A stretch of 62,284 nt of DNA. Source: Melioribacter roseus (GTDB lineage Bacteria > Bacteroidota > Ignavibacteria > Ignavibacteriales > Melioribacteraceae). A program made the translations under genes and the position numbers. Position 1 is the first letter of the stretch. Each line of letters begins with the position of its first letter. Below the pieces are notes generated by a model, which did not search any database, was not told the DNA's origin, and saw only the letters and a list, made by a program, of their open reading frames with translations. Location: assembly GCA_020724265.1 (NCBI GenBank), contig DYHH01000023.1, positions 1 to 62,284 on the forward strand, given 5' to 3'. Positions 10,809 to 25,361 of this stretch are shown piece by piece.

Positions 10809-12872
10809 ATGTTCAAAAAATTAAACAACATTAAGTTTGTTAGAAAAATTCAAATAGGATTTTTTCTTATCGCAGCGGTTGCTACATTCGTTGCCGTAAA
10901 TGATTTTTTACGCATTTCGCAATTCGAGAAGACTAAAGAAGATATTTTTTCCGATTATATGGAACCGATGGTTGTAGTAAAGGAAATGTATACCGAATTT
11001 CAGAAAATGCAGTTTGTTCTACTTCAGCTGTCAATCCCGGAATTTGCAGATGAATTCACAAAAAATGTCGGTATTTACCGCGGTTATAGCGAAAATTTCG
11101 ACAACTCAATTTTAGAATTAACCGAAAAAGAATTGAACAATGAAATTGTTTATAACTCACTCGAAGAAATAAATTCTATTTGGTTGAATTATAAAGGATT
11201 GGTTGCCGATGGAATTATAAGTGCCAGTGCATCACAAATGTTTGATATGGCTGCGGTAATCGCAGCTACTTCAGGTAAAGAAGTCGGTGATATTCTCGTA
11301 GCTAAGTTTGACTCGATTGTAGATGAACTTAATAAAAAATCAGACTCGCTGAATATTGAAATGACAGAGCAAATCAGTATATCACGAACATCAACTTTAA
11401 TCGGAATGATTGTTGGCACAATATTTTTCTTAATTGCGGTATTCGTTATTGCACCGACAATTTCCAAACCTATGAACGAATTGAAAGATGTTGTTAAGCA
11501 ATTTTCGGACGGGAATTATAATTTGGAACTCAATCTCGAAAGAAAAGATGAATTTGGTGAATTAGCCGATCTAATGAATGTTATGAAAGAGAAACAGTTG
11601 GAAAAAATTAGTGCCGTTAAGAATGTTGCGGAAGGCAGATTGAAAAAAGTCGTTCCCGCATCGGAAAATGATGAACTTTCGTTTGCAATAAACAAACAAA
11701 TTGATATCCTGCAAAGCTTGTTAAGAGAAGCAGATAAACTTGTAGAAGCAAACAAGGTCGGAGATCTATCACTCAAAGGTGAAGTCGATAAATTTAACGG
11801 AGATTGGCAGAAGTTTATAATCGGCATAAATTCAATTCTTGATTCGATGGTTAGACCGATTAGAGAAGCTACAATTGTACTTACCGAAATTGCCCGTGGT
11901 AATTTAACAATGAAGATGGAACAAGATTATCAAGGTGATTATCAACTTATTAAGGATAATATTAATAAAGTGGTTGATTCACTTAATGATATTCTTTATA
12001 AAGTGATCAATAATTCGCATCAGCTTGAAGTGATGACGACAAATATCTATAACGGTACGGAAGAACTGGTCGGAGGTGCCGAAAGACAAAAAACTCAGAC
12101 ATATGAAGTTGCATCTGCTATTGAAGAAATGGCTACTACCATACAGGATAACAGTAAAAGTGCCGTTACAACATCACAACTTGCGGATCAAGCAGGTAAC
12201 AAAGCTCAAGAAGGGGGTAATGTAGTCGGTGAGACTATTAAAGGTATTCAGCGTATTGCAGATGTTGTCTTCAAATCCGAAAAAACAATTCACGAACTTG
12301 CAAATAACACAAATAAAATTGGTGAAATTATTCAAGTGATTAATGAGATTGCAGATCAAACCAATCTGCTTGCACTTAACGCAGCAATTGAAGCTGCACG
12401 AGCCGGAGAGCAGGGAAGAGGTTTTGCTGTTGTTGCAGATGAAGTTCGTAAGCTTGCCGAACGTACTACTAATGCTACCGAAGAAATTGAAAATATGCTT
12501 GGAAAAATTCAGAAGGATACATCTGAAGCAGTTCTTGTAATTAACCAAGGAACTGAAGAAGTTGAAAACGGTAAAAAGTTAGCAAATGAAGCAAGCAATG
12601 CACTTACGGAAATAATAAAAAGTGCAGATGAAGTTTCTTACACTATAAAACATTTGGCAGCAGCTAATGAAGAGCAAAGCACAACCAGTGCGGCAATTTC
12701 AAAAAATGTAGAAGAAATTAGATTAGTAACCGAGGATTACAGTCTTCACATAAGCCAAATAAAAGATTCTGTTAAGAAGCTCTCAGATTCTTCAAACGAA
12801 TTGAAAGTATCCTTAAGTAAATTTAATATAATCGAAGCAGAATTTGTGGAACAAGAAGAATATAGCTATTAA
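10809..12872 (+). CDS. Methyl-accepting chemotaxis protein with tandem HAMP-like region
   Basis: 687 residues. A membrane segment at 13-34, a roughly 160-residue helical periplasmic sensor domain and a second membrane segment at 194-216 are followed by a HAMP domain at 217-270. A second HAMP-like stretch lies at about 300-395 ([20 protein letters not shown]). The signalling domain runs to the end, with the conserved tip [21 protein letters not shown] around 513-533 that binds CheA and CheW, and [14 protein letters not shown] after it. It should relay a ligand signal to the flagellar or gliding machinery. No che genes lie in the window. Its partner is the upstream TonB-C gene. The ligand is unknown. 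Confidence 0.93.
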
Positions 12873-12925: not shown

Positions 12926-14485
12926 CTACATATTATAATAAATACCGGCATCCGGTCCCAAAGGTAAACCAAAAAACAACCAGATCACTAACAAAATTGC
13001 CCAAGCAACAAAAAATATTATCGTGTAAGGCAGCATTGTTGAAATAATTGTTCCGATACCTGCCTTGCTATCATACTTCTGAAAGTATGCAATAATTAAA
13101 GCGAAGAAACTCATCATCGGTGAAATAATATTTGTAATGCTGTCTCCGATTCTATATACAACTTGAGTTAATTCCGGAGAATATCCTAATAGCATAAACA
13201 TAGGTACAAAAATAGGAGCCATTAATGCCCACTTTGCTGATGCGCTTCCCATAAGCATATTTATCATTGCCGACAAGATTATAAACATTAACATTAGTGG
13301 AATAATACCTAAGCCGGAAGATGCAATTAAATCCGCACCTTTTACTGCAAAGATTACTCCAAGGTTAGTCCATTTGAAATAAGCAACAAATTGTGCTGCG
13401 AAGAAAACTATAACAATGTATAAGCTGAGCGTTTTAGTTGCAGAGCTCATACTGTTAATTACATCTGTATCATTTTTAAATTTACCGACTCCAACTCCGT
13501 ATGCGATGCCCATCAAACCGGCAACAATAAACAAAATAGCAACTACGCCCTTTATTAATGGCGAGGTTAACATTCCTCCGTCGCTTCCTCTTAAAAATCC
13601 GTCTTCGGGAATAATACCGATAAGAACAATAATTGTAATGATTACAAAAGTGATTAAACTATATTTCAATCCTTTCTTTTCATTTGTGCTGAGTTTCTCA
13701 ATTTTTTCTGGTTGAACGTCACCGTCATATTTCCCTAATCTTGGTTCAACAATTTTTTCGGTTACCCATGTACCGGCAAAAGCAATAATAAAAGTAGAGA
13801 CGAACATAAAGTAATAGTTAGCTGTTGGATTAACTAAATAATTAGGATCAATAATTTGTGCAGCTTCTTCCGAAAGTCCGGCTAACAAAGGGTCAATAGT
13901 TCCTAATAATAAATTTGCACTGAAACCTCCGGAGACACCGGAAAATGCGGCAGCCATTCCTGCTATTGGATGCCGGTGAACTGCACCGAATATTATTCCA
14001 GCTAAAGGAATTAATAGTACATAACCTATGTCACTTGCTGTGTTTGATATTACTCCTGAAAAAACTAATATAAATGTTAATAATCTGTTTGGTGCAGACA
14101 AAACTAGCAGTCTAATTATTGTTGCAATTAAACCACTGCCTTCGGCAACTCCGATACCGAGCATTGCAACTAGAACAATTCCAAGCGGAGCAAAACTTGT
14201 AAAGTTATCTACCATCTCAAGTAAAATTCTATTGAGCCCATCTTCGGTCATTAAGTTAACAGGTATAATGGTTTCGCCTGTACCCGGATGGATAGCTTCC
14301 CAGCCCAATGATGCGGCAACAGCTGATAGTATTATAATAGATAATGCAAATAATCCGAAGAGTGTACCGGGGTGAGGTAATGCGTTTCCGGCTTTTTCTG
14401 TAAGGTTTAGAAATCGGTTAAAGAGCGATTTTGATTCTTTTTTCTTTCTCTCCATAAAAATCCGTTTTTGTTTTGCGGAATCCAT
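12926..14485 (-). CDS. AbgT family transporter
   Basis: 519 residues with about eleven to thirteen hydrophobic segments. Family features are the N-terminal [60 protein letters not shown], and [21 protein letters not shown] near 400-420. Known AbgT members carry p-aminobenzoyl-glutamate or act as sulfonamide exporters in the inner membrane. The first ATG at 14485 gives a ten-residue basic extension; the internal ATG at 14455 (MERKKKES) is also possible, and neither has a clear Shine-Dalgarno. Whether it serves folate-breakdown uptake here cannot be told from context. Confidence 0.88.
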
Positions 14486-14806: not shown

Positions 14807-16219
14807 GTGAACACAAAAAATTTATCATTCATTTTAAATGATGTTGAGATAAATACAAAAGTAAATCCTTCTCTTCCTTTATTGGATTACATTCGGAAAG
14901 AAAAGCACCTTACCGGAACTAAAGAAGTATGTAAAGAAGGCGACTGCGGAGCTTGTGCTGTTCTATTTGGCGAAGTAATAGATGACGAGCTTAAATATAA
15001 AACTATCACTTCTTGTATCTATCCGATCGGTAACTGTAATGGGAAACATATTGTTACAATAGAAGGAATAAATAAACAAGAACTCCTTCTGCATCAAAAA
15101 GCATTTGTTGATGAAAATGCTTCACAATGCGGTTTTTGTACTCCGGGATTCATAATGTCGTTTACTTGTTATCTACTCAACAATCAACACTTCAATCTGG
15201 ATGACGCAATAAATTCGATAGCAGGAAATATATGCCGCTGTACCGGTTATCATTCAATTGAAAGAGCAATGAAAACGGTTTTGGATCAACTAAAGACAGA
15301 CGGACAGATTGATAAAATTAATAACCTTATTGACCGTAATATTATCCCGGAATATTTCAAGGAAATTAAAAAGGGACTAATAAATTTATCATTACCAAAA
15401 CAAACTATACCGGATAAATCCGCGATATTTATCGGCGGTGGTTCCGATTTATTTGTTCAGAAACCCGAGGATTTACTGGAAGAAGAAGTTTACTTAATAA
15501 CCGAACGTAAATTAAATTACATTCGTGAAAGTAACAGCATAATTAAAATAGGAAGCGGGACTACTTTTGAAGAAATTAAACAATCCGAGTTACTAAATAA
15601 ATATTTCCCGACAATTAAAAAGGATATTGATTTAATTGCATCTCTCCCGGTAAGAAATGCGGCAACAGTCGGTGGTAATTTATCAAATGCTTCTCCTATT
15701 GGTGATATAACAATAATACTTCTCGCATTAAATGCTGATTTAACGTTAAGTGACGGAGAGAAAGAAAGAAACTTACCGCTAAGAGAATTTTACCTCGATT
15801 ACAAAGAACTAAACAAACAAAAAATAGAGTTTATAAAAGAAGTTTCATTTCATATTCCACAAAAAAAATTTTACTTCAGTTTTGAGAAAGTTTCAAAACG
15901 GACTTATCTCGATATAGCAAGTGTAAACAGTGCAATGTTAATTGAAGTTGATGATAATAAAATTATTTCAGCATCAATTTCAGCGGGTGGAGTTGCTCCT
16001 ATTCCTAAACTGCTTGATAAAACAAATGATTTCTTGAATGAGAAAGAAATCAGTATTGATACAATAGATGAAGCATTACAAATAGCACGGTCTGAAATTT
16101 CACCGATAAGCGATGTACGCGGAAGCGCTGATTATAAAAGATTATTATTGAATCAATTAATTAAGTCACACTTCTTAAAATTATTCCCGCATAAAATATT
16201 TGAAAGCCAATTGATATGA
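14807..16219 (+). CDS. xdhA: Xanthine dehydrogenase small subunit (2Fe-2S and FAD)
   Basis: 470 residues from a GTG start. Residues 1-80 are a plant-type ferredoxin domain (C42, C47, C50, C70). Residues 81-160 are the helical second [2Fe-2S] domain (C108, C111, C143, C145). Residues 200-460 are a FAD domain of the molybdenum hydroxylase type, with FIGGGSDLF and NAATVGGNLSNASPIGD. It passes electrons from the molybdenum centre through two clusters to FAD and NAD+ in the cytoplasm. It overlaps xdhB by 4 bp and heads a five-gene operon. Fusion of FeS and FAD parts in one chain is the usual bacterial XdhA arrangement. Confidence 0.93.
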   Translation: MNTKNLSFILNDVEINTKVNPSLPLLDYIRKEKHLTGTKEVCKEGDCGACAVLFGEVIDDELKYKTITSCIYPIGNCNGKHIVTIEGINKQELLLHQKAFVDENASQCGFCTPGFIMSFTCYLLNNQHFNLDDAINSIAGNICRCTGYHSIERAMKTVLDQLKTDGQIDKINNLIDRNIIPEYFKEIKKGLINLSLPKQTIPDKSAIFIGGGSDLFVQKPEDLLEEEVYLITERKLNYIRESNSIIKIGSGTTFEEIKQSELLNKYFPTIKKDIDLIASLPVRNAATVGGNLSNASPIGDITIILLALNADLTLSDGEKERNLPLREFYLDYKELNKQKIEFIKEVSFHIPQKKFYFSFEKVSKRTYLDIASVNSAMLIEVDDNKIISASISAGGVAPIPKLLDKTNDFLNEKEISIDTIDEALQIARSEISPISDVRGSADYKRLLLNQLIKSHFLKLFPHKIFESQLI

Positions 16220-18531
16220 AATCAAGTGACACAATAAAACACGTTAAAGGTGAATCGATATTTGTCGATGATATGATTGTTCCCGAAGGGACATTATATG
16301 CAGCGGTTTTTGATTCACCGGTTGCACACGGCAAAATATTAAATATCGATATAACCGCCGCTGAAAAGAGCGAAGGGGTAATTAAAGTACTTACTGCAAA
16401 AGATATCCCCGGCGAAAATCAAATTGGAAATATAATAGAAGATGAGCCACTTCTTTCGGAAAAAGTAGTTGAATATATCGGTGAGCCGATCGCAGTTGTG
16501 ATTGCAGAATCACCAATGAATGCAAAGAAAGCAAGAAATAAAATAAAAATTGAATTCGAAGAACTGACTATAATAACCGATCCTCGCGAAGCATTTAAAG
16601 CCGGAAGAGTCATTGCACCGCCGAGAGTTTTTGCAATGGGTGATACCGGCAAAGCGTTCAAAGACTGCAAGTATGTAATTGAAGATAAAGTTGAAATAGG
16701 AGGACAGGAACATTTATATCTTGAAACACAGGGTTCACTTGCAATTCCAACCGAAGGGAAAGGAATAAGATTATTCTCGTCAACTCAAAGTCCGACTGCA
16801 GTTCAAAAAACAACTGCGAAAGTACTCAACTTGAAAATGCACCAGGTTGAAGTTGATGTATTAAGATTAGGCGGCGCATTCGGCGGTAAAGAAGATCAAG
16901 CTACACATTGGGCGGTTATTGCCTCACATGGTGCACACATAACACAAAAGCCGGTTAAAATAATCTTAAACCGTCACGATGATTTACGAATGACCGGTAA
17001 ACGACATCCTTATTCGGTTGATTATAAAATCGGTCTTTCCGATAATTACAAAATTTTAGCATACGAAGTTACTTATTATCAAAATGCCGGAGCTTGCGCC
17101 GATTTATCAACCGCAATTTTAGAAAGAACTTTTTTCCACACTACAAATAGTTATTATATTCCAAATGTTAGAGCAATGGGAATTTCCTGTAAAACAAATT
17201 TACCTCCCAATACGGCATTCAGAGGATTCGGAGGTCCGCAGGCAATGTTTGTTATTGAATCCGCTATTCATAAAGCAGCTGATGAAATTGGTATTAAAAC
17301 TTATCAAATACAGAAAAATAATTTGCTGAAAGAAAATGATATGTTTTATTACGGTCAGAAAGCTGATAGAGTTAATGCAGTTAAATGTTGGAACAAAGCT
17401 GAAGAACTCTATAATTATTCTAAAAAAGAAAAAGAGGTAGAAGAGTTTAACAAAAAACATCTTCTTAAAAAGAAAGGTATTTCATTTATGCCGATTTGTT
17501 TCGGTATTTCTTTTACTAATACAATGCTTAACCAGGCAAGTGCCTTAGTTCATATCTATTCAGACGGATCAGTTTCGGTTAATACCGCTGCTGTTGAAAT
17601 GGGTCAAGGTGTTAATGAAAAGATGATTAACATAGCTGCTAAAGTGTTTTCAATTAACAAAAACAGAATTAAAGTTGAATCAACGAACACAACAAGGGTT
17701 GCAAACACTTCGGCTACTGCTGCCAGCAGCGGTGCCGACTTAAACGGAAACGCTTTGTTAATTGCATGTAATAATCTGGTAGACAGGCTAAGAAGAAATG
17801 CAGCTGATATTCTTAATATAAATGACGAACTAAACATAGAATTCGTTGATGAATTGGTTCTTCATAAAAAAGAAAAAACCGGTATAACTTGGGAAGAACT
17901 TATCAACTCGGCTTATGTAAATAGAATAAGTCTATCATCACAAGCTTTTTATGCTACACCTCAAATTCATTTTGATAGAACAATTAATCAAGGTCATCCG
18001 TTTGCTTATCACGTTTACGGTACTGCAATTACAATAGCTGTAGTTGATTGTTTAAGAGGCACCTACGAAATTGAATCGGTTGAAGCAGTTCACGATTTCG
18101 GTAAAAGTATAAACCCGTTAATAGACCTCGGTCAAGCTGAGGGGGGTATTGTTCAAGGTATTGGCTGGATGACGATTGAAGAATTAGTTCAAGACGAGAA
18201 AGGTGCTTTGAAATCAAATTCGCTATCAACTTACAAAGTACCCGATATTTATTCGGCACCGAAAAATTTAAAAGTTCATTTTCTTGAAGATTCTGAAAAT
18301 CCTTTCGGACCATTTAAATCAAAAGCCATCGGAGAACCGCCTTTGATGTATGGTATAGGTTCGTTCTTCGCAATAGCAAATGCAATTAAAGCATTTAAAC
18401 CGGATGTAAAGATTAAATACTCATCTCCTATAACACACGAAAAAACCTTGATGCATTTATATCAAGAAGAAGAGCATACAAAAATCAAGACGGGAGAGAT
18501 TGAGTCTAATTTAATAACGGAGAAAACTTGA
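16216..18531 (+). CDS. xdhB: Xanthine dehydrogenase molybdenum-binding subunit
   Basis: 771 residues, the usual length. The residues that hold purine and molybdenum in bovine xanthine oxidase line up with the same spacing: E226 (GGAFGGKE; bovine E802), R304 (ILERTFFH; bovine R880), R336 (AFRGFGGPQ; bovine R912) and the catalytic base E707 (KAIGEPPLM; bovine E1261). EMGQGVNEKM at 461-470 is part of the cofactor pocket. It should hydroxylate hypoxanthine and xanthine. The start overlaps xdhA (ATGA) and the end overlaps xdhC (TTGA). The conserved purine residues make true xanthine dehydrogenase activity more likely than aldehyde oxidase. Confidence 0.94.
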   Translation: MKSSDTIKHVKGESIFVDDMIVPEGTLYAAVFDSPVAHGKILNIDITAAEKSEGVIKVLTAKDIPGENQIGNIIEDEPLLSEKVVEYIGEPIAVVIAESPMNAKKARNKIKIEFEELTIITDPREAFKAGRVIAPPRVFAMGDTGKAFKDCKYVIEDKVEIGGQEHLYLETQGSLAIPTEGKGIRLFSSTQSPTAVQKTTAKVLNLKMHQVEVDVLRLGGAFGGKEDQATHWAVIASHGAHITQKPVKIILNRHDDLRMTGKRHPYSVDYKIGLSDNYKILAYEVTYYQNAGACADLSTAILERTFFHTTNSYYIPNVRAMGISCKTNLPPNTAFRGFGGPQAMFVIESAIHKAADEIGIKTYQIQKNNLLKENDMFYYGQKADRVNAVKCWNKAEELYNYSKKEKEVEEFNKKHLLKKKGISFMPICFGISFTNTMLNQASALVHIYSDGSVSVNTAAVEMGQGVNEKMINIAAKVFSINKNRIKVESTNTTRVANTSATAASSGADLNGNALLIACNNLVDRLRRNAADILNINDELNIEFVDELVLHKKEKTGITWEELINSAYVNRISLSSQAFYATPQIHFDRTINQGHPFAYHVYGTAITIAVVDCLRGTYEIESVEAVHDFGKSINPLIDLGQAEGGIVQGIGWMTIEELVQDEKGALKSNSLSTYKVPDIYSAPKNLKVHFLEDSENPFGPFKSKAIGEPPLMYGIGSFFAIANAIKAFKPDVKIKYSSPITHEKTLMHLYQEEEHTKIKTGEIESNLITEKT

Positions 18532-19487
18532 ACGAAAAATCCTTCTGGCAATTCGCTGCTGATTCGTTAAAAGATAATTCTAAAATTGTATTGATTACAG
18601 TTGCTGATTCGTATTTGTCATCACCGGGTAAACAAGGTTTCAAAATGTTTGTTCTTCCTGATAGAACTACAAAAGGAACAATCGGCGGCGGTATAATGGA
18701 AAACCAGCTTATTGATTATGCTGTTGATCTTTTATCCGGGAATGAAACAAAACTTGTTAAACGTCTTCAGCATTCATCAAAAACCGAGTTAGAGAATTCC
18801 GGATTAATTTGCGGTGGTTTTCAATCAATCATCTTTACTGTTCTATCAAGTAAAGACTTGTCCGTTATAAATTCGATTCTAAGTAACATTGAAAAAAAAC
18901 GAAACGGTATTTTTGAATTAAAACAAAACTCATTTAACTATTACACCGACTCAACACTAAAAGCTGATTATGAATTTAATTACGAAGGTGATACAAATTA
19001 TTACTACAAAGAGAACATCGGTCTGGTTGATACTGCTTATGTTATTGGTGGTGGACATGTGGGCTTAGCAGTATGCCAAGTTATGAAATTTCTCGGGTTT
19101 CACGTTATTGTTTTTGATCACCGCGAAGATGTTTTTACTATGAAGCAAAATGTATATGCCGATGAAAAAATTATTATCGATTATAAAGATGTAAACAAAC
19201 ACATAAATGATGGAAATAAATCATACGTTATTATCGTTACACCGCAGCATATGGGCGATAAAGAAGCACTTGGTTCCGTTATACATATGAATTTTAAGTA
19301 TATAGGTATGATGGGAAGTAAAAGAAAAATTAAAACGATATTTAATAATCTTGCTAAAGAAGGCTATGATAAAAAATTATTTGAACGAGTTCATTCACCC
19401 ATTGGTTTGGAAATTGAAGCCGAAACACCGAACGAAATTGCAGTAAGCATTGCAGCAGAAGTTATTAAGATTAAACACAGCGAATAA
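18528..19487 (+). CDS. xdhC: XdhC/CoxI family molybdenum cofactor sulfuration chaperone
   Basis: 319 residues from a TTG start embedded in the xdhB stop (TTGA). The N-terminal part carries the XdhC signature GTIGGGIMENQLI. The C-terminal part is a Rossmann fold with AYVIGGGHVGLAV and VFDHREDVF. KYIGMMGSKRK and the C-terminal helix PNEIAVSIAAEVI are also typical. XdhC proteins bind the molybdenum cofactor, protect its sulfurated form and insert it into XdhB. Here it could serve both molybdenum hydroxylases of the operon. Confidence 0.9.
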   Translation: MNEKSFWQFAADSLKDNSKIVLITVADSYLSSPGKQGFKMFVLPDRTTKGTIGGGIMENQLIDYAVDLLSGNETKLVKRLQHSSKTELENSGLICGGFQSIIFTVLSSKDLSVINSILSNIEKKRNGIFELKQNSFNYYTDSTLKADYEFNYEGDTNYYYKENIGLVDTAYVIGGGHVGLAVCQVMKFLGFHVIVFDHREDVFTMKQNVYADEKIIIDYKDVNKHINDGNKSYVIIVTPQHMGDKEALGSVIHMNFKYIGMMGSKRKIKTIFNNLAKEGYDKKLFERVHSPIGLEIEAETPNEIAVSIAAEVIKIKHSE

Positions 19488-19491
19488 TATT

Positions 19492-22400
19492 ATGTCAGAT
19501 AAACTTTATACATTACCAATTGATCGATTACTAAAATGGATATTAGCTGAAGAATCTCAAGGTAAGATTTTCGGATATTATAAAGAATTATTCTTCCAAC
19601 CAAAAACAACTGATTGTTTTAAAATAATTAGATACAACCAAAAATTAGATACACCGCTTGGTGTTGCAGCGGGACCTCATACACAACTTTCGCAAAATAT
19701 AATTCTCTCTTATTTATTCGGTTCGCGGTATATAGAATTAAAAACCGTTCAAGTACTTGATAGTATTGAAGTTACCAAACCCTGTATCGATATGATTGAC
19801 GAAGGTTACAATTGTGAATGGTCTCAAGAGTTGACTATCGAGGAAAGTTATAATCAATACTTAGATGCGTGGATTTTAATTCACTTGCTTAATGATAAAT
19901 TTGGTTATGATTTTAATTCGATCTTTAATATTAGTGTGGGCTATGATTTGAAGGGAATTAAAAGTAAAAAAGTTGAATGGTTCTTAAATAAAATGTTGGA
20001 TTCATCTTTCGAAATAGAACAGAAGGTAAATCAATTAAGCAAAACTTATCCTCAAATAAAAAATATTGAAATTCCATCTCAAATCAGCAACAATGTAACG
20101 TTATCAACAATGCACGGCTGTCCCCCCGATGAGATTGAAAAAATTGCTCAACATTTAATTGAGGATTGGAAATTTCACACGGCTGTTAAACTTAATCCGA
20201 CAATTTTGGGTAAAGAAAAACTGCGTGAAACTCTCAATGAAAAATTAAATTACGATATTGTAGTACCAGATGAAGCTTTTGAACACGATTTGAAGTTTGA
20301 AGATGCAGTAAAACTAATTGAACGATTGATGCAAAAGGCAAATGATAATAAAGTTGAATTCGGTTTAAAAATGACAAACACTTTGGAGTCGTTAAACTCA
20401 ACAGATTTTTTGCCGACAAAGGAGAATATGGTTTATATGAGTGGAAGGGCATTACATCCTATCACTGTAAACGCCGCTGCTTTACTGCAAAACAAATTCA
20501 ATGGTGAGCTTGATATTTCTTTCTCCGGTGGTGCAGATGCTTTCAACTTTGCCGATCTTGTGGCCTGTAATTTAACTCCAGTAACAGTTTGTTCCGATTT
20601 ACTTAAACCAGGAGGTTATTCCCGGCTTCCTCAATATCTCGATAATCTTACATCTGCGATGAAAGAAACTAATAGCAATTCAATTGAAGAATATATTTTA
20701 CGTAAAGGTGAATCAAGCGATGTTAATGAAGCTTCACAAAAGTATCTTAGTCAATACGCAGAAGAAACAATTGAATCACCCCGCTATAAAAAGTCTATTT
20801 TGAAAAATCAAACGATTAAAACGAAGAGAGAATTAACACAGCTTGATTGTATTCATTCACCTTGTATTGAAGCATGTGCAATCGATCAACTTGTACCGCA
20901 ATATTTATATCATGCATCAAACGGTGATTTTGATAAATCGTATAGATCAATTATAAATGAAAACCCGCTTCCGAATATGACCGGAATGGTTTGCGATCAT
21001 CTTTGTCAAACTAAATGTACCAGGATGAATATTGACGACTCTTTATTAATAAGAGAGATAAAAAGGTTTGTATCCGTAAAAGAATCGGATTTTTTTAACA
21101 GAAAATCTAAATTAGAAAGAATTATAAAGACTGCAATCATAGGTGCAGGTCCATCAGGTTTATCCGCTGCTTACTTTTTAGCATTGGAAGGAATTGATGT
21201 AGATGTTTACGAATCACGATCATACGGCGGCGGCATGGTATCTGCAACTATTCCCAAATTTAGAATCGATGAAGACGCATTAAATAAGGATATCGAAAAC
21301 ATAAAATCACTCGGTGTTAATATTCATTACAACTCAAAAATTGACCAAATAAAATTTGATGAGATAAATAATAATAGTGATTTTGTTTATCTAGCAGTAG
21401 GTGCGCAAAAAGGTAAACCACTTCGTATCGATGGAGAAGATAACAAAAATGTTATTGATCAAATTTCATTTCTTGAGAAAGTTAAAAATGATCATAACAT
21501 ATCAATAGGTAAAAGAGTTGCAGTTATAGGGGGTGGTAACTCAGCTATGGATGCAGCACGCACTGCTAAAAGATTAATATCACAAGTTAATGGTGATGTT
21601 ACGGTTGTTTATCGAAGAACAAAAAATGAAATGCCTGCCGATAAAGAAGAAATAAAAGAACTTCTTGAAGAAGGAATCATACTTGTAGAATTAACAGCGC
21701 CGGTAAATATTGACGAAAGAGAAACAGGATTAATTCTTAACTGCATTAAAATGGAATTAGGTGAGCCTGACGGATCCGGTAGAAGACGACCCGTTGAAAT
21801 ACCTAATTCAAATTTTGAATTGGAATTCGATACTATTATTACTGCAATTGGGCAGGACATAGTTCTTGACTTTTTACACGGACAAAAATTATCGGTTGAT
21901 TCAAACGGATGTTTAGAAGGTTACGAAAATATATTTGCCGGCGGAGATGCCGTTCGCGGAGCAGATTCACTTATTAATGCTATTGCAGATGGGAAAAATT
22001 TTGCCGAAAAAATTCTTTCACGATTACAATATTCTGAAGCAAATAATAATAATAACTCGACCAAAATAGAATTAAAAGAATATCAACAAAAACTTGCAAA
22101 AAGAATTCACAGCGATGGATTAAAAACTTTACCTTTGGAAAAACGTGACAGTTTTGAAACTGTTATTCCTCTACTTGATGACAATGCGGTTATTAAAGAA
22201 GCATCACGTTGTCTTTTCTGTGATGAGATATGTAACATTTGTGTCTCGGTCTGTCCTAACCTATCCAACTATTATTATGAAATTAATCCATTCTCAGTGA
22301 ACTATCCGTTAATAGAATTTTCAAACGGTGAATTTAAAGTAGTCGGTCATCATACTTTTTCGGTAGATCAAAAATATCAAATACTGAACTTGTATGACTT

Positions 22401-22740
22401 ATGTAACGAATGCGGTAATTGCGATACCTTTTGTCCAACCTCCGGAGCACCTTACAAAGTAAAGCCACGTTTTTGTTTTAACGAAGATAGTTTTAAAAAC
22501 GAGGATAATGTTTATATGAAAAACGATGATAAATTGTTTTATAAAAACAATGGTAATCTTAGTACACTTTTTATAAAAGATCATAAAATTATTTTTGCTG
22601 ATAAACATTACGATGCTGTCTTTGATGAACAATTTCATCCGATCGAAATAACGAAAAAATATAATCATGATTTGAACTTAGATACAAAAAAGATTGCTGA
22701 GATGTATTATTATCAAACTGCTCTGGGTGATTTTGTTTAA
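19492..22740 (+). CDS. ygfK: YgfK-like iron-sulfur flavoprotein (putative selenate reductase subunit family)
   Basis: 1082 residues from the ATG at 19492, 4 bases after the xdhC stop. An upstream ATG at 19450 would overlap xdhC by 38 bp and add fourteen unconserved residues, so I prefer 19492. Residues 1-400 are a dihydroorotate-dehydrogenase-like barrel. Residues 430-860 resemble GltD-type NADPH oxidoreductases, with an N-terminal cysteine region (CIEACAIDQ, CDHLCQTKC), AIIGAGPSGLSAA for FAD and AVIGGGNSAMDAA for NADPH. Two ferredoxin-like cysteine groups follow (CLFCDEICNICVSVCP and CNECGNCDTFCP). E. coli YgfK has the same layout and sits beside xdhD. It probably exchanges electrons with the XdhD-type enzyme downstream; the true substrate is unproven in the family. 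Confidence 0.9.
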   Translation: MSDKLYTLPIDRLLKWILAEESQGKIFGYYKELFFQPKTTDCFKIIRYNQKLDTPLGVAAGPHTQLSQNIILSYLFGSRYIELKTVQVLDSIEVTKPCIDMIDEGYNCEWSQELTIEESYNQYLDAWILIHLLNDKFGYDFNSIFNISVGYDLKGIKSKKVEWFLNKMLDSSFEIEQKVNQLSKTYPQIKNIEIPSQISNNVTLSTMHGCPPDEIEKIAQHLIEDWKFHTAVKLNPTILGKEKLRETLNEKLNYDIVVPDEAFEHDLKFEDAVKLIERLMQKANDNKVEFGLKMTNTLESLNSTDFLPTKENMVYMSGRALHPITVNAAALLQNKFNGELDISFSGGADAFNFADLVACNLTPVTVCSDLLKPGGYSRLPQYLDNLTSAMKETNSNSIEEYILRKGESSDVNEASQKYLSQYAEETIESPRYKKSILKNQTIKTKRELTQLDCIHSPCIEACAIDQLVPQYLYHASNGDFDKSYRSIINENPLPNMTGMVCDHLCQTKCTRMNIDDSLLIREIKRFVSVKESDFFNRKSKLERIIKTAIIGAGPSGLSAAYFLALEGIDVDVYESRSYGGGMVSATIPKFRIDEDALNKDIENIKSLGVNIHYNSKIDQIKFDEINNNSDFVYLAVGAQKGKPLRIDGEDNKNVIDQISFLEKVKNDHNISIGKRVAVIGGGNSAMDAARTAKRLISQVNGDVTVVYRRTKNEMPADKEEIKELLEEGIILVELTAPVNIDERETGLILNCIKMELGEPDGSGRRRPVEIPNSNFELEFDTIITAIGQDIVLDFLHGQKLSVDSNGCLEGYENIFAGGDAVRGADSLINAIADGKNFAEKILSRLQYSEANNNNNSTKIELKEYQQKLAKRIHSDGLKTLPLEKRDSFETVIPLLDDNAVIKEASRCLFCDEICNICVSVCPNLSNYYYEINPFSVNYPLIEFSNGEFKVVGHHTFSVDQKYQILNLYDLCNECGNCDTFCPTSGAPYKVKPRFCFNEDSFKNEDNVYMKNDDKLFYKNNGNLSTLFIKDHKIIFADKHYDAVFDEQFHPIEITKKYNHDLNLDTKKIAEMYYYQTALGDFV

Positions 22741-22784
22741 TTGATAAGATAAAAAATGAAAATTAATTAGGATGCAAAATTGAC

Positions 22785-25361
22785 ATGAAATTTTTCTTAA
22801 ACGGAATAGAAAAAGAATACAACGGTAAAGCTGAATTATCGTTGTTAAAATATCTTCGCGAAGAAGAAGGAATAATAACAGTTAAAGACGGTTGCTCGCC
22901 TCAAGCCGGATGCGGTTCTTGTTCTGTATTAGTTGATAACCGCGCTCAACTTTCATGTTCAATTCCAATGAGCAGAGTTGAGGGCAAAAGTATAATTACC
23001 CCAGAAGGTTTAGATGATTATCGCAAACGAGTGTTTACAAATGCATTCGTTGAAAAGAGTGGAGTACAATGTGGATTCTGTATCCCCGGTATTGTGATGC
23101 GAGCTGTGGATTTGATTAATAGCAATCCCAATCCTACAAGAGAAGATATTGAACGCAAACTTAGGTCGAATATTTGTCGTTGTACGGGGTATAAAAAAAT
23201 AATTGATTCAATTGAATATGCAGCAGAAGCTATTCGTGAGTTAAAAGAAATTCCCGATCCAAAAATTTCAAAAACGGGTATTGGTAAAAAGTATCCAAAA
23301 TATAATGCAAAAAATATGGTGCTTGGTTTCAGTCCTTATGTGGAAGATATAAAACTTGAAGGAATGCTGTACGCCGCATTAAAATTTAGCGATCACCCAC
23401 GTGCAATTATTAAATCAATTGATACATCAAAAGCAGCAAAACTGGATGGCGTAATTAAAATAGTTACTGCAAAAGATGTCCCCGGGAAAAGATATACCGG
23501 GTTAATAATTAATGATTGGCCTGTCTTCGTTGCCGAAGAAGAAGAAACACGGTACATCGGTGATGTTCTGGCTTCTGTTATTGCGGAAAGCGAATCAATC
23601 GCTAGAGACGCGGTTAATCTTATAGAAATTGAATATGAAGTTCTGAAACCTATTACCGATCCGTTTGAAGCATTGAAAGATGATTCACCAAAAATACATT
23701 CTAAAGGTAATGTTTTGTCCTGCACAATTATTAATAGAGGTAATACCGAAAATGCATTTAATGAAGCTGCGTTTATTTCTAAAGGTAGGTACACAACACA
23801 ATTTATTGAACATGGTTATTTAGAAACAGAATGTTCGGTTGCTAAACCCGACAAAGAAGGTGGTGTGGAAGTTCTTTCGCAAGGGCAAGGTATTTATGAA
23901 GATAGAAAACAAATTGCTCGAGTTCTCAATTTGCCTGAAGATAAAGTTAGGGTAATATTGGTTCCTAACGGCGGTGGATTCGGAGGTAAAGAGGATTTAA
24001 CTGTTCAACACCATGCCGCACTTTGTTCATTACTTACCGATCAACCGGTAAAAGTAAAATTAACCCGCGATGAATCTATACGTATGCATCCTAAAAGACA
24101 TCCGTTAATTATGGATTATACGGTTGCTTGCGATAACAACGGAATGTTAACTGCTATTAAAGCAGATATAGTTGGTGATACCGGAGCGTACGCATCAGTA
24201 GGAATGAAAGTACTCGAAAGAGCCGCTGGTCATGCAACCGGTGCATATTCTATCCCTAATGCAGAAATTATAAGTAAAGCTGTTTATACTAATAATATTC
24301 CGTGTGGAGCTATGCGTGGTTTCGGTGTTAATCAAGTTACTTTTGCTATTGAAAGTTGTATTGATGATTTATGTGAACAAGGCGGATTCGATAGATGGGA
24401 ATTCCGTTACAATAATGCTTTAGTTGATGGCGGTGTTACAGCAACAGGTCAGATTCTTAAAGGAGGTACAGGTGTTAGAGATACTTTACTTGCAGTGAAA
24501 GATGAATTTAATAATGCAAAGTTTGCCGGTATTGCGTGCGGAATTAAAAACACAGGTATAGGTAATGGTATGCCTGATGAAGGCACAGTTAAAATTGAAG
24601 TCGTTTCTGATGACCATGTAATTCTTCATCATGGATGGACTGAAATGGGGCAGGGTGTAAATACTATGGCAGTTCAATTTCTTTGCAATGAAACAGGTTT
24701 AGACCCAAATATCGTTGAAGTAAAAGTTGATACTAAAGCAAATGCTAGTGCCGGAATGACAACTGCTTCCAGAGCAACATCTATTGTAGGTAATGCCATT
24801 ATCGAAACGGCAAAAGATTTTGTAAAAGATTTGGAAAAATATTCTTTAAATGAACTTGCCGGTAAAGTTTATGAAGGGAAATGGATTTGTGATTGGACTA
24901 CAAAGCCTGAAGATTTAGAAAAAGAAATCGTTACTCATTATTCTTACAGTTATGCAACTCAAGTTGTTATTTTAAATGATAACGGTGAAGTTGAAAAAGT
25001 AATTGCAGCTCATGATGCAGGTAAAATTATTAATCCCAATTTATTCGAAGGACAAATTGAAGGCTCGGTTCATATGGGATTGGGTTACGCTCTTACCGAA
25101 GAACTTGTTATGAAAGATGGTTTTCCAATGACTACTAATTTCAGAGATTTGGGGATCCTTCGTGCGCAACAAACTCCCGAAATAAAAGTAATAGGCATTG
25201 AAGTTCATGATCCTATTGGTCCGCATGGCGCAAAAGGTGTCGGTGAAATTGGCTTAGTTCCGACCGCAGGCGCAGTAGCAAATGCACTTTATCAATATGA
25301 TAAGGTTAGGTATTATACTTTACCGATGAAAAATAGAGTTAAACCGGCAGGAAAAACTTAA
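22785..25361 (+). CDS. xdhD: XdhD-type fused molybdenum hydroxylase (selenium-dependent xanthine dehydrogenase family)
   Basis: 858 residues joining a two-cluster [2Fe-2S] part (C37, C43, C46, C58; C96, C99, C131, C133) directly to a molybdenum-binding part, without FAD. GGGFGGKE ends at E403, VLERAAGH keeps the second substrate arginine, MRGFGVNQ the third position, and GAKGVGEIG supplies the catalytic glutamate near 828. This layout and length match the family annotated as selenium-dependent xanthine dehydrogenase, known from E. coli XdhD and clostridial purine hydroxylases, which carry a labile selenium ligand rather than selenocysteine. Lacking FAD, it needs a partner, most likely YgfK, 44 bp upstream. 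Its substrate may be a purine. The selenium part is family knowledge only. Confidence 0.9.
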   Translation: MKFFLNGIEKEYNGKAELSLLKYLREEEGIITVKDGCSPQAGCGSCSVLVDNRAQLSCSIPMSRVEGKSIITPEGLDDYRKRVFTNAFVEKSGVQCGFCIPGIVMRAVDLINSNPNPTREDIERKLRSNICRCTGYKKIIDSIEYAAEAIRELKEIPDPKISKTGIGKKYPKYNAKNMVLGFSPYVEDIKLEGMLYAALKFSDHPRAIIKSIDTSKAAKLDGVIKIVTAKDVPGKRYTGLIINDWPVFVAEEEETRYIGDVLASVIAESESIARDAVNLIEIEYEVLKPITDPFEALKDDSPKIHSKGNVLSCTIINRGNTENAFNEAAFISKGRYTTQFIEHGYLETECSVAKPDKEGGVEVLSQGQGIYEDRKQIARVLNLPEDKVRVILVPNGGGFGGKEDLTVQHHAALCSLLTDQPVKVKLTRDESIRMHPKRHPLIMDYTVACDNNGMLTAIKADIVGDTGAYASVGMKVLERAAGHATGAYSIPNAEIISKAVYTNNIPCGAMRGFGVNQVTFAIESCIDDLCEQGGFDRWEFRYNNALVDGGVTATGQILKGGTGVRDTLLAVKDEFNNAKFAGIACGIKNTGIGNGMPDEGTVKIEVVSDDHVILHHGWTEMGQGVNTMAVQFLCNETGLDPNIVEVKVDTKANASAGMTTASRATSIVGNAIIETAKDFVKDLEKYSLNELAGKVYEGKWICDWTTKPEDLEKEIVTHYSYSYATQVVILNDNGEVEKVIAAHDAGKIINPNLFEGQIEGSVHMGLGYALTEELVMKDGFPMTTNFRDLGILRAQQTPEIKVIGIEVHDPIGPHGAKGVGEIGLVPTAGAVANALYQYDKVRYYTLPMKNRVKPAGKT

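Follow-up and report, generated by a model that had tools for sequence, protein, structure and literature searches.

A joined xanthine dehydrogenase, YgfK and XdhAC operon in Melioribacter roseus as the probable entry half of a selenium-free reductive urate pathway

What is a conventional xanthine dehydrogenase doing in one apparent operon with a YgfK protein and a second molybdenum (Mo) hydroxylase, and does the last of these enzymes use selenium? The question is raised by five genes in a 62,284-nucleotide stretch of DNA from Melioribacter roseus (assembly GCA_020724265.1, contig DYHH01000023.1; hereafter the window), which is the entire contig C26 of a genome (G000) of 3.77 Mb in 56 contigs that is 99.98% complete. 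We propose that these genes, xdhA, xdhB, xdhC, ygfK and a last gene for a fused hydroxylase without a flavin adenine dinucleotide (FAD) domain that we name XdhAC, probably encode the opening half of the anaerobic, reductive route of urate breakdown together with the urate-producing enzyme, and work without selenium. The proposal is based on gene content, gene order, domains, conservation and the absence of SelD, YqeB and uricase matches over cut-off; the individual reactions and the sulfido ligand are predicted from homologues, and co-transcription is likewise presumed. The joined operon itself is real and metabolically sensible.

The earlier note on this DNA, made from the letters alone, had described five same-strand genes, and the open reading frame (ORF) coordinates and the sequence at the junctions agree with it: xdhA/xdhB and xdhB/xdhC each overlap by 4 base pairs (bp), and gaps of 4 bp and 44 bp separate xdhC from ygfK and ygfK from xdhAC (Table 1), taking ATG rather than the mechanical ORF start, TTG at 19450, as the start of ygfK. 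The view that a conventional xanthine dehydrogenase and a pair of YgfK and a second Mo hydroxylase form one apparent operon is upheld by this spacing and by an order kept in relatives. As the earlier note also held, the two sets are separate in Escherichia coli: in strain K-12, a distance of about 12 kb, with genes on the opposite strand, separates xdhABC from ygfK. A scan of the plus strand placed no terminator-like site inside any operon junction (11 sites observed versus 8.8 expected). The promoter scan was uninformative (57 sites observed versus 55.6 expected from shuffles), so it is spacing that points to co-transcription of the five genes. Neither the Rfam scan nor the tRNA scan gave a match in the window.

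XdhAC combines [2Fe-2S] domains with Mo domains in a single chain, with no FAD domain by Pfam, and scores 947 bits against TIGR03311 (cut-off 830.45). Its AlphaFold model (pLDDT 87, pTM 0.90) aligns with the FAD-less aldehyde oxidoreductase 1dgj over 836 residues (Z 44.1, root-mean-square deviation 2.2). The label XdhD, given to this gene at first, had to be abandoned: the protein scores 257 bits against TIGR03313, far from the cut-off of 1101.9, shares 24.7% identity with E. coli XdhD and is missing the residue E606 of that enzyme. No gene for a separate FAD subunit of the YgfM type lies beside xdhAC.

The window YgfK scores 890 bits against TIGR03315 (cut-off 835.3) and combines a flavin mononucleotide (FMN)-type barrel, a GltD-like FAD/NAD(P)H module and a C-terminal iron–sulfur (Fe–S) dicluster. 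In its AlphaFold model (pLDDT 89, pTM 0.86), residues ~22–421 match dihydroorotate dehydrogenases (Z ~24–26, 12–14% identity) and residues ~451–961 match Nfn/StnABC, GltD and DPD (Z 30–47). Among 58 genomes, comprising G000 and 57 relatives, YgfK passes the cut-off in 21, falling into 13 ‘classical’ proteins (1190–1394 bits) and 8 of the window type (865–957 bits); two more were classed from pieces, one of the window type (G001, 87% identical) and one classical (G018, split over two contigs). In a midpoint-rooted tree built from 95 YgfK proteins, a classical clade that includes E. coli (support 1.0) stands apart from the rest, and both kinds of ygfK occur within the same family. Fifteen cluster-type cysteines are kept in every window-type (8/8) and every classical (11/11) protein compared. 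Extra Fe–S clusters, considered as a mark of electron donation to XdhAC, were not found in the window type; with the same cysteines in both classes, nothing extra marks the YgfK–XdhAC pairing. In the barrel, the residue of the window YgfK is shared by at least 95% of the 94 YgfK proteins aligned at 82 positions, and the E. coli protein agrees at 75 of these.

XdhAC follows one kind of YgfK. TIGR03311 is matched over cut-off in 11 of the 58 genomes (G000, G001, G002, G003, G013, G020, G021, G024, G030, G037 and G041), and a further genome, G014, has xdhAC in pieces at contig ends (one of 560 bits, below cut-off, and one of 240 residues beside ygfK). All nine genomes with a window-type ygfK have XdhAC, and no TIGR03311 match was found in the 14 genomes with a classical ygfK (E-value 1e-120), both counts being uncorrected for kinship. 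The two genes are directly adjacent in 8/8 window-type genomes whose contig permits a view. Among ten classical neighbourhoods (L031–L040), four (L034, L035, L038 and L039) have a three-gene Mo/FAD/Fe–S enzyme instead of XdhAC, as does the classical piece from G018 (L030); in the other six the three-gene enzyme is partial or does not occur within the stretch. XdhAC and the three-gene enzyme appear to replace each other in relatives.

In the ygfK neighbourhoods of related genomes, to which the earlier note had pointed as a check (20 stretches from 19 relatives), the complete order xdhA-xdhB-xdhC-ygfK-xdhAC recurs in five (G002, G003, G013, G020 and G030). G014 shows xdhB to xdhAC, the remainder being cut by the ends of a short contig, and G021 has the ygfK-xdhAC pair only; the five-gene order was not seen in the fetched relatives with a classical ygfK. 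Intergenic gaps across these operons range from −4 to 98 bp, with a single −47 in L026 that arises from an upstream mechanical start. Among the best 80 of 577 relatives, the closest named one is an Ignavibacteriales metagenome-assembled genome (MAG) with a 62% identical YgfK, and operon genes are present in loci titled Ignavibacteriales, Bacteroidales and Neomarinimicrobiota.

Two relatives from different genera, G037 and G041, encode a shortened protein (mini-YgfK; Table 1) directly upstream of xdhAC, 21 bp away. Judged by its own cysteine spacing, mini-YgfK retains the barrel and the C-terminal dicluster (cysteines 462–472 and 522–532) and is without the FAD/NAD(P)H module, having a counterpart for 6 of the 350 window residues 541–890. 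It agrees at 69 of those 82 highly conserved barrel positions and is 39% identical to the window YgfK over 472 residues. The order in G037 is xdhC-mini-ygfK-xdhAC, with no xdhAB adjoining.

Table 1. Coordinates of the operon genes in the window and of the shortened YgfK in two relatives
Feature	Location	Strand	Description
xdhA	14807..16219	+	GTG start; 470 residues; [2Fe-2S] and FAD subunit of xanthine dehydrogenase
xdhB	16216..18531	+	ATG start; 771 residues; molybdopterin subunit of xanthine dehydrogenase
xdhC	18528..19487	+	TTG start; 319 residues; molybdenum cofactor sulfuration/insertion factor
ygfK	19492..22740	+	ATG at 19492; 1082 residues; second YgfK clade; predicted yanthine reductase
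xdhAC (protein 5)	22785..25361	+	ATG start; 858 residues; fused [2Fe-2S] and Mo hydroxylase, FAD domain absent; predicted urate dehydroxylase
mini-ygfK	L145:5482-7437 and L146:13036-14991		651 residues; beside XdhAC; G037 and G041 (two genera)

The first three genes are predicted to encode the urate-forming enzyme and its maturation factor. XdhA has the Pfam domains Fer2_2, FAD_binding_5 and CO_deh_flav_C, and its best model is TIGR02963 (355 bits, cut-off 467); that of XdhB is TIGR02965 (794 bits, cut-off 849.5). XdhB has a GEPP motif near its C-terminus, and its E226 and R336 align with motifs that we take to be the purine-site Glu and Arg. XdhC contains XdhC_C (127.5 bits) and XdhC_CoxI (47 bits) domains and scores higher on an aldehyde-oxidoreductase maturation model (NF045664, 234 bits, cut-off 350) than on the xanthine dehydrogenase one (TIGR02964, 123 bits, cut-off 161.6), both scores being below cut-off and the models differing in length. 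The suggestion that one XdhC may mature both enzymes is supported in so far as G000, at its near-full completeness, holds a single XdhC_C match, and the protein, being the only XdhC found in the genome, is the obvious candidate to sulfurate both Mo enzymes.

Candidates for the rest of a reductive pathway lie elsewhere in G000. A block on one strand of contig C1 encodes an allantoinase-like enzyme (TIGR03178, 368.5 bits, just over the cut-off of 357.85), an SsnA-like enzyme (NF005540, 348.7 bits against 444; a second model, 312 against 455.5), YgeY (TIGR03526, 503.5 bits, cut-off 321.5), a carbamoyltransferase of the OTC/YgeW-like kind (TIGR03316, 175.5 bits against 500, with other carbamoyltransferase models higher and also below cut-off), a ThrC-like pyridoxal phosphate (PLP) enzyme and a MocA-like protein. 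In three relatives (G002, G003 and G013) the block comes directly after the operon, in convergent orientation. The ThrC-like enzyme (L041:8910-10157) stands where the diaminopropionate lyase YgeX would be expected and is a possible replacement for it; a YgeX-like gene occurs on contig C3 (437 bits against 532) and in just 6 of the 58 genomes. A CysK-like PLP enzyme of ~490 residues, belonging to no named family over cut-off, is encoded at the end of contig C19 (G000:C19:67432-68904; also L042:9743-11218). It is present in 29 of the 58 genomes (E-value 1e-60) and in 33 of 80 named ygfK loci, follows the hydantoinase-like gene in G002 and seems to track urate genes. A 23-kb Bacteroidales MAG locus (L088:1-23162) holds hyuA-, ygeW- and ygeY-like genes, xdhA, xdhB, ygfK, both PLP enzymes, xdhAC and an SsnA-like gene.

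Two other genes stand upstream of the operon in the window. A chemoreceptor gene (10809-12872), whose product possibly senses a purine, has a counterpart of 78% identity immediately upstream of the operon in G002 and G003; in the window it is separated from the operon by a gene for an AbgT-family transporter (12926-14485, minus strand).

Comparable steps have been worked out in other bacteria. In E. coli, according to one report (PMC12507026), XdhD–YgfM reduces urate to yanthine, YgfK and SsnA convert yanthine to ureidomethyl-hydantoin, and HyuA, YgeW, YgeY and YgeX follow; the activity of YgfK on yanthine was measured with SsnA, and YgfK was characterised as a yanthine reductase. Clostridium sporogenes XdhAC converts urate to yanthine with an artificial donor, and Percudani lists its physiological electron donor as unknown (PMC12990295). 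By homology, XdhA–XdhB would oxidise hypoxanthine and xanthine to urate; XdhAC would take the oxygen off C6 of urate to yield yanthine (2,8-dioxopurine); and YgfK would reduce yanthine at its FMN barrel, with electrons from NAD(P)H entering at the GltD-like FAD module. The C1 locus, with the one gene at the C19 contig end, would supply the SsnA-like ring opener, the allantoinase/hydantoinase-like enzyme, the carbamoyltransferase, YgeY, the PLP enzymes and the MocA-like factor, and XdhC would furnish both Mo enzymes with molybdenum cofactor that carries sulfur and not selenium.

The pairing also raises a narrower idea, that window-type YgfK is the electron donor of XdhAC, the two forming a complex in which a single NAD(P)H entry, at the FAD module of YgfK, would feed both the YgfK FMN, for yanthine, and, through the Fe–S clusters, XdhAC, for urate, without selenium. 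We entertain it because XdhAC has no flavin module, because the genes adjoin in every window-type genome that can be judged and because classical genomes lack TIGR03311 matches; we nevertheless regard it as rather doubtful. Mini-YgfK has no FAD module, so in G037 and G041 the common donor would have to be another, such as ferredoxin. In addition, G024 has XdhAC without YgfK beside it, the Bacteroidales loci keep ygfK and xdhAC in one cluster with other genes between them, and three loci whose YgfK falls outside the classical clade (L053, L068 and L095) have a Mo enzyme with an FAD subunit as its neighbour.

A different reading makes XdhAC a second purine hydroxylase, oxidising hypoxanthine or xanthine for example, with YgfK reducing some other substrate. 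XdhAC retains E403, R511 and E821, the Glu/Arg/Glu set of ordinary purine hydroxylases (E821 is invariant in the alignment); it has Arg where E. coli XdhD has Gln, and it is without the E606 of that enzyme. These purine-site residues resemble those of an ordinary xanthine dehydrogenase, not of E. coli XdhD, which keeps this reading alive. However, a xanthine dehydrogenase with its own FAD subunit is already present in the operon, G000 appears to encode most steps of reductive urate breakdown, and XdhAC seems to be interchangeable with the three-gene Mo/FAD/Fe–S enzyme in relatives; we consider it unlikely that XdhAC serves as such a hydroxylase.

Could the last enzyme instead be a genuine selenium-dependent Mo hydroxylase, with its selenium genes elsewhere in the genome? 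TIGR03311, whose cut-off XdhAC passes, is named ‘selenium-dependent xanthine dehydrogenase’. We take Enterococcus faecalis EF_2570 to belong to this family, and the C. sporogenes XdhAC presumably uses selenium. SelD and YqeB are, in Haft and Self 2008, the genomic markers of selenium-dependent Mo hydroxylases, and a table there gives E. coli SelD as b1764 (PMC2276186). The genome search for selD and yqeB proposed in the earlier note gave no SelD over cut-off in G000 (best match 34 bits against 125, partial, positions 82–268) and no YqeB (TIGR03309) there at E-value 0.001 or in any of the 58 genomes at 1e-10, with the E. coli control found; SelD and YqeB were the markers covered, and SelA/SelB, YqeC and selenouridine synthase were not searched. 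The 34-bit match, of a sort common below cut-off in these genomes, looks like the wider PurM/ThiL/HypE fold. SelD passes the cut-off in two genomes (G012 and G016; 454–455 bits), neither with XdhAC. We therefore rejected the selenium reading for G000. Of the companions that were to be found elsewhere if selenium were used, an SsnA-like gene did turn up outside the window, on C1, albeit below the curated cut-offs; SelD and YqeB did not, and the selenium cofactor assigned to the last gene was not borne out.

In a hand-chosen set of 50 named genomes, drawn from 80 fetched loci, SelD passes the cut-off in 33; YqeB does so in 11, each of which also has SelD. Of 25 named ygfK loci that also bear an XdhAC relative, assigned by best match to reference proteins (35–73% identity, four at only 35–37% and some proteins truncated) and not by TIGR03311 score, 4 come from genomes with both markers, 12 from genomes with SelD only and 9 from genomes with neither; the completeness of the named genomes is not given, so these absences are soft and that in G000 is firmer. 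The four genomes with both markers speak for selenium dependence and the other 21 against it, and for the window we find it very unlikely. The findings also suggest that the database name of the family overpredicts selenium.

That the cluster instead feeds an oxidative urate and allantoin route, with the allantoinase-like gene a true allantoinase, we hold to be barely credible: the C1 amidohydrolase does score just over the AllB cut-off (368.5 against 357.85), but SsnA-like and YgeY genes adjoin it, and uricase (PF01014) has no match in any of the 58 genomes at E-value 1e-5, though other kinds of urate oxidase, such as HpxO, were not searched.

Several observations count against a selenium-free reductive urate pathway at this locus. 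XdhA, XdhB and XdhC all score below their curated cut-offs, as do the SsnA-like, YgeW-like and MocA-like proteins, and SsnA passes its cut-off in 8 of the 58 genomes, of which G041 alone belongs to the 11 TIGR03311-positive ones. The two halves of the pathway lie apart in G000, unlike in G002. The window YgfK is 36% identical to the E. coli enzyme; window-type and classical proteins are set apart by 10 barrel positions that are fixed or nearly so, of which two are gaps, and the barrel cysteines C108, C359 and C367 occur in 8/8 window-type proteins versus 0/11, 2/11 and 0/11 classical ones. E606, proposed by Li et al. to orient urate in E. coli XdhD, is missing from XdhAC, and its likeness to the C. 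sporogenes enzyme is one of architecture. Finally, SelD-family matches too weak to reach the cut-off turn up in 55 of the 58 genomes, most of which are drafts, and a selenium factor of a kind not yet recognised may exist.

The locus bears on several current questions. Johnstone and Self (PMC11448449) raise the possibility that urate reduction is strictly selenium-dependent; XdhAC from a genome with neither SelD over cut-off nor YqeB offers a natural test of that dependence. Its pairing with window-type or mini-YgfK names candidates for its physiological electron donor. The six phyla named in the SsnA survey of Li et al. do not take in Ignavibacteriales, Bacteroidales or Neomarinimicrobiota, and ‘bacteroid’ is absent from the main text. 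The record titles ‘SulCav’, ‘CSSed10’ and ‘BS-750m’ read as non-gut sources for some loci which, if so, bear on whether the urate pathway arose in the gut.

The reductive urate pathway itself was already known (2025), and the operon is a variant of it. What is new is the selenium-free setting of XdhAC, the joined operon, the association of XdhAC with one YgfK clade only in these relatives, and mini-YgfK in two genomes. In the openly licensed literature we found no description of the joined operon or mini-YgfK, and, among the matches listed, nothing on point for Ignavibacteria with uric acid or with purine degradation or xanthine dehydrogenase.

One of the nearest known systems is the uricolytic cluster of E. 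coli (xdhABC; ygfK-ssnA-ygfM-xdhD; ygeWXY-hyuA-yqeA), which covers the same set of steps; identity to its proteins is 36% for YgfK, 50% for YgeY, 31% for the SsnA-like and 28% for the HyuA-like protein. E. coli has SelD and YqeB and keeps its xanthine dehydrogenase apart from ygfK, and its XdhD has the FAD partner YgfM (PMC12507026), whereas here XdhAC is FAD-less, YgfK belongs to the other clade, the block includes a ThrC-like PLP enzyme and the YgeX-like gene is elsewhere. The Desulfovibrio aldehyde oxidoreductase (1dgj) matches the fold of XdhAC over its whole length at 28% identity, yet its substrate is an aldehyde, not a purine. Relative to E. faecalis EF_2570 and the TIGR03311 selenium hydroxylases (PMC2276186), XdhAC passes the same family model in a genome without YqeB and without SelD over cut-off. 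UacX, which partners XdhD in C. difficile (PMC12507026), and the ferredoxin-dependent PydAc (PMC7332683) resemble mini-YgfK in lacking an FAD domain, although mini-YgfK is a shortened YgfK and not a PydA homologue. The C. sporogenes XdhAC, to judge from its name and the commentary on it, is, like the last enzyme of the operon, a fused Fe–S and Mo protein with no FAD subunit.

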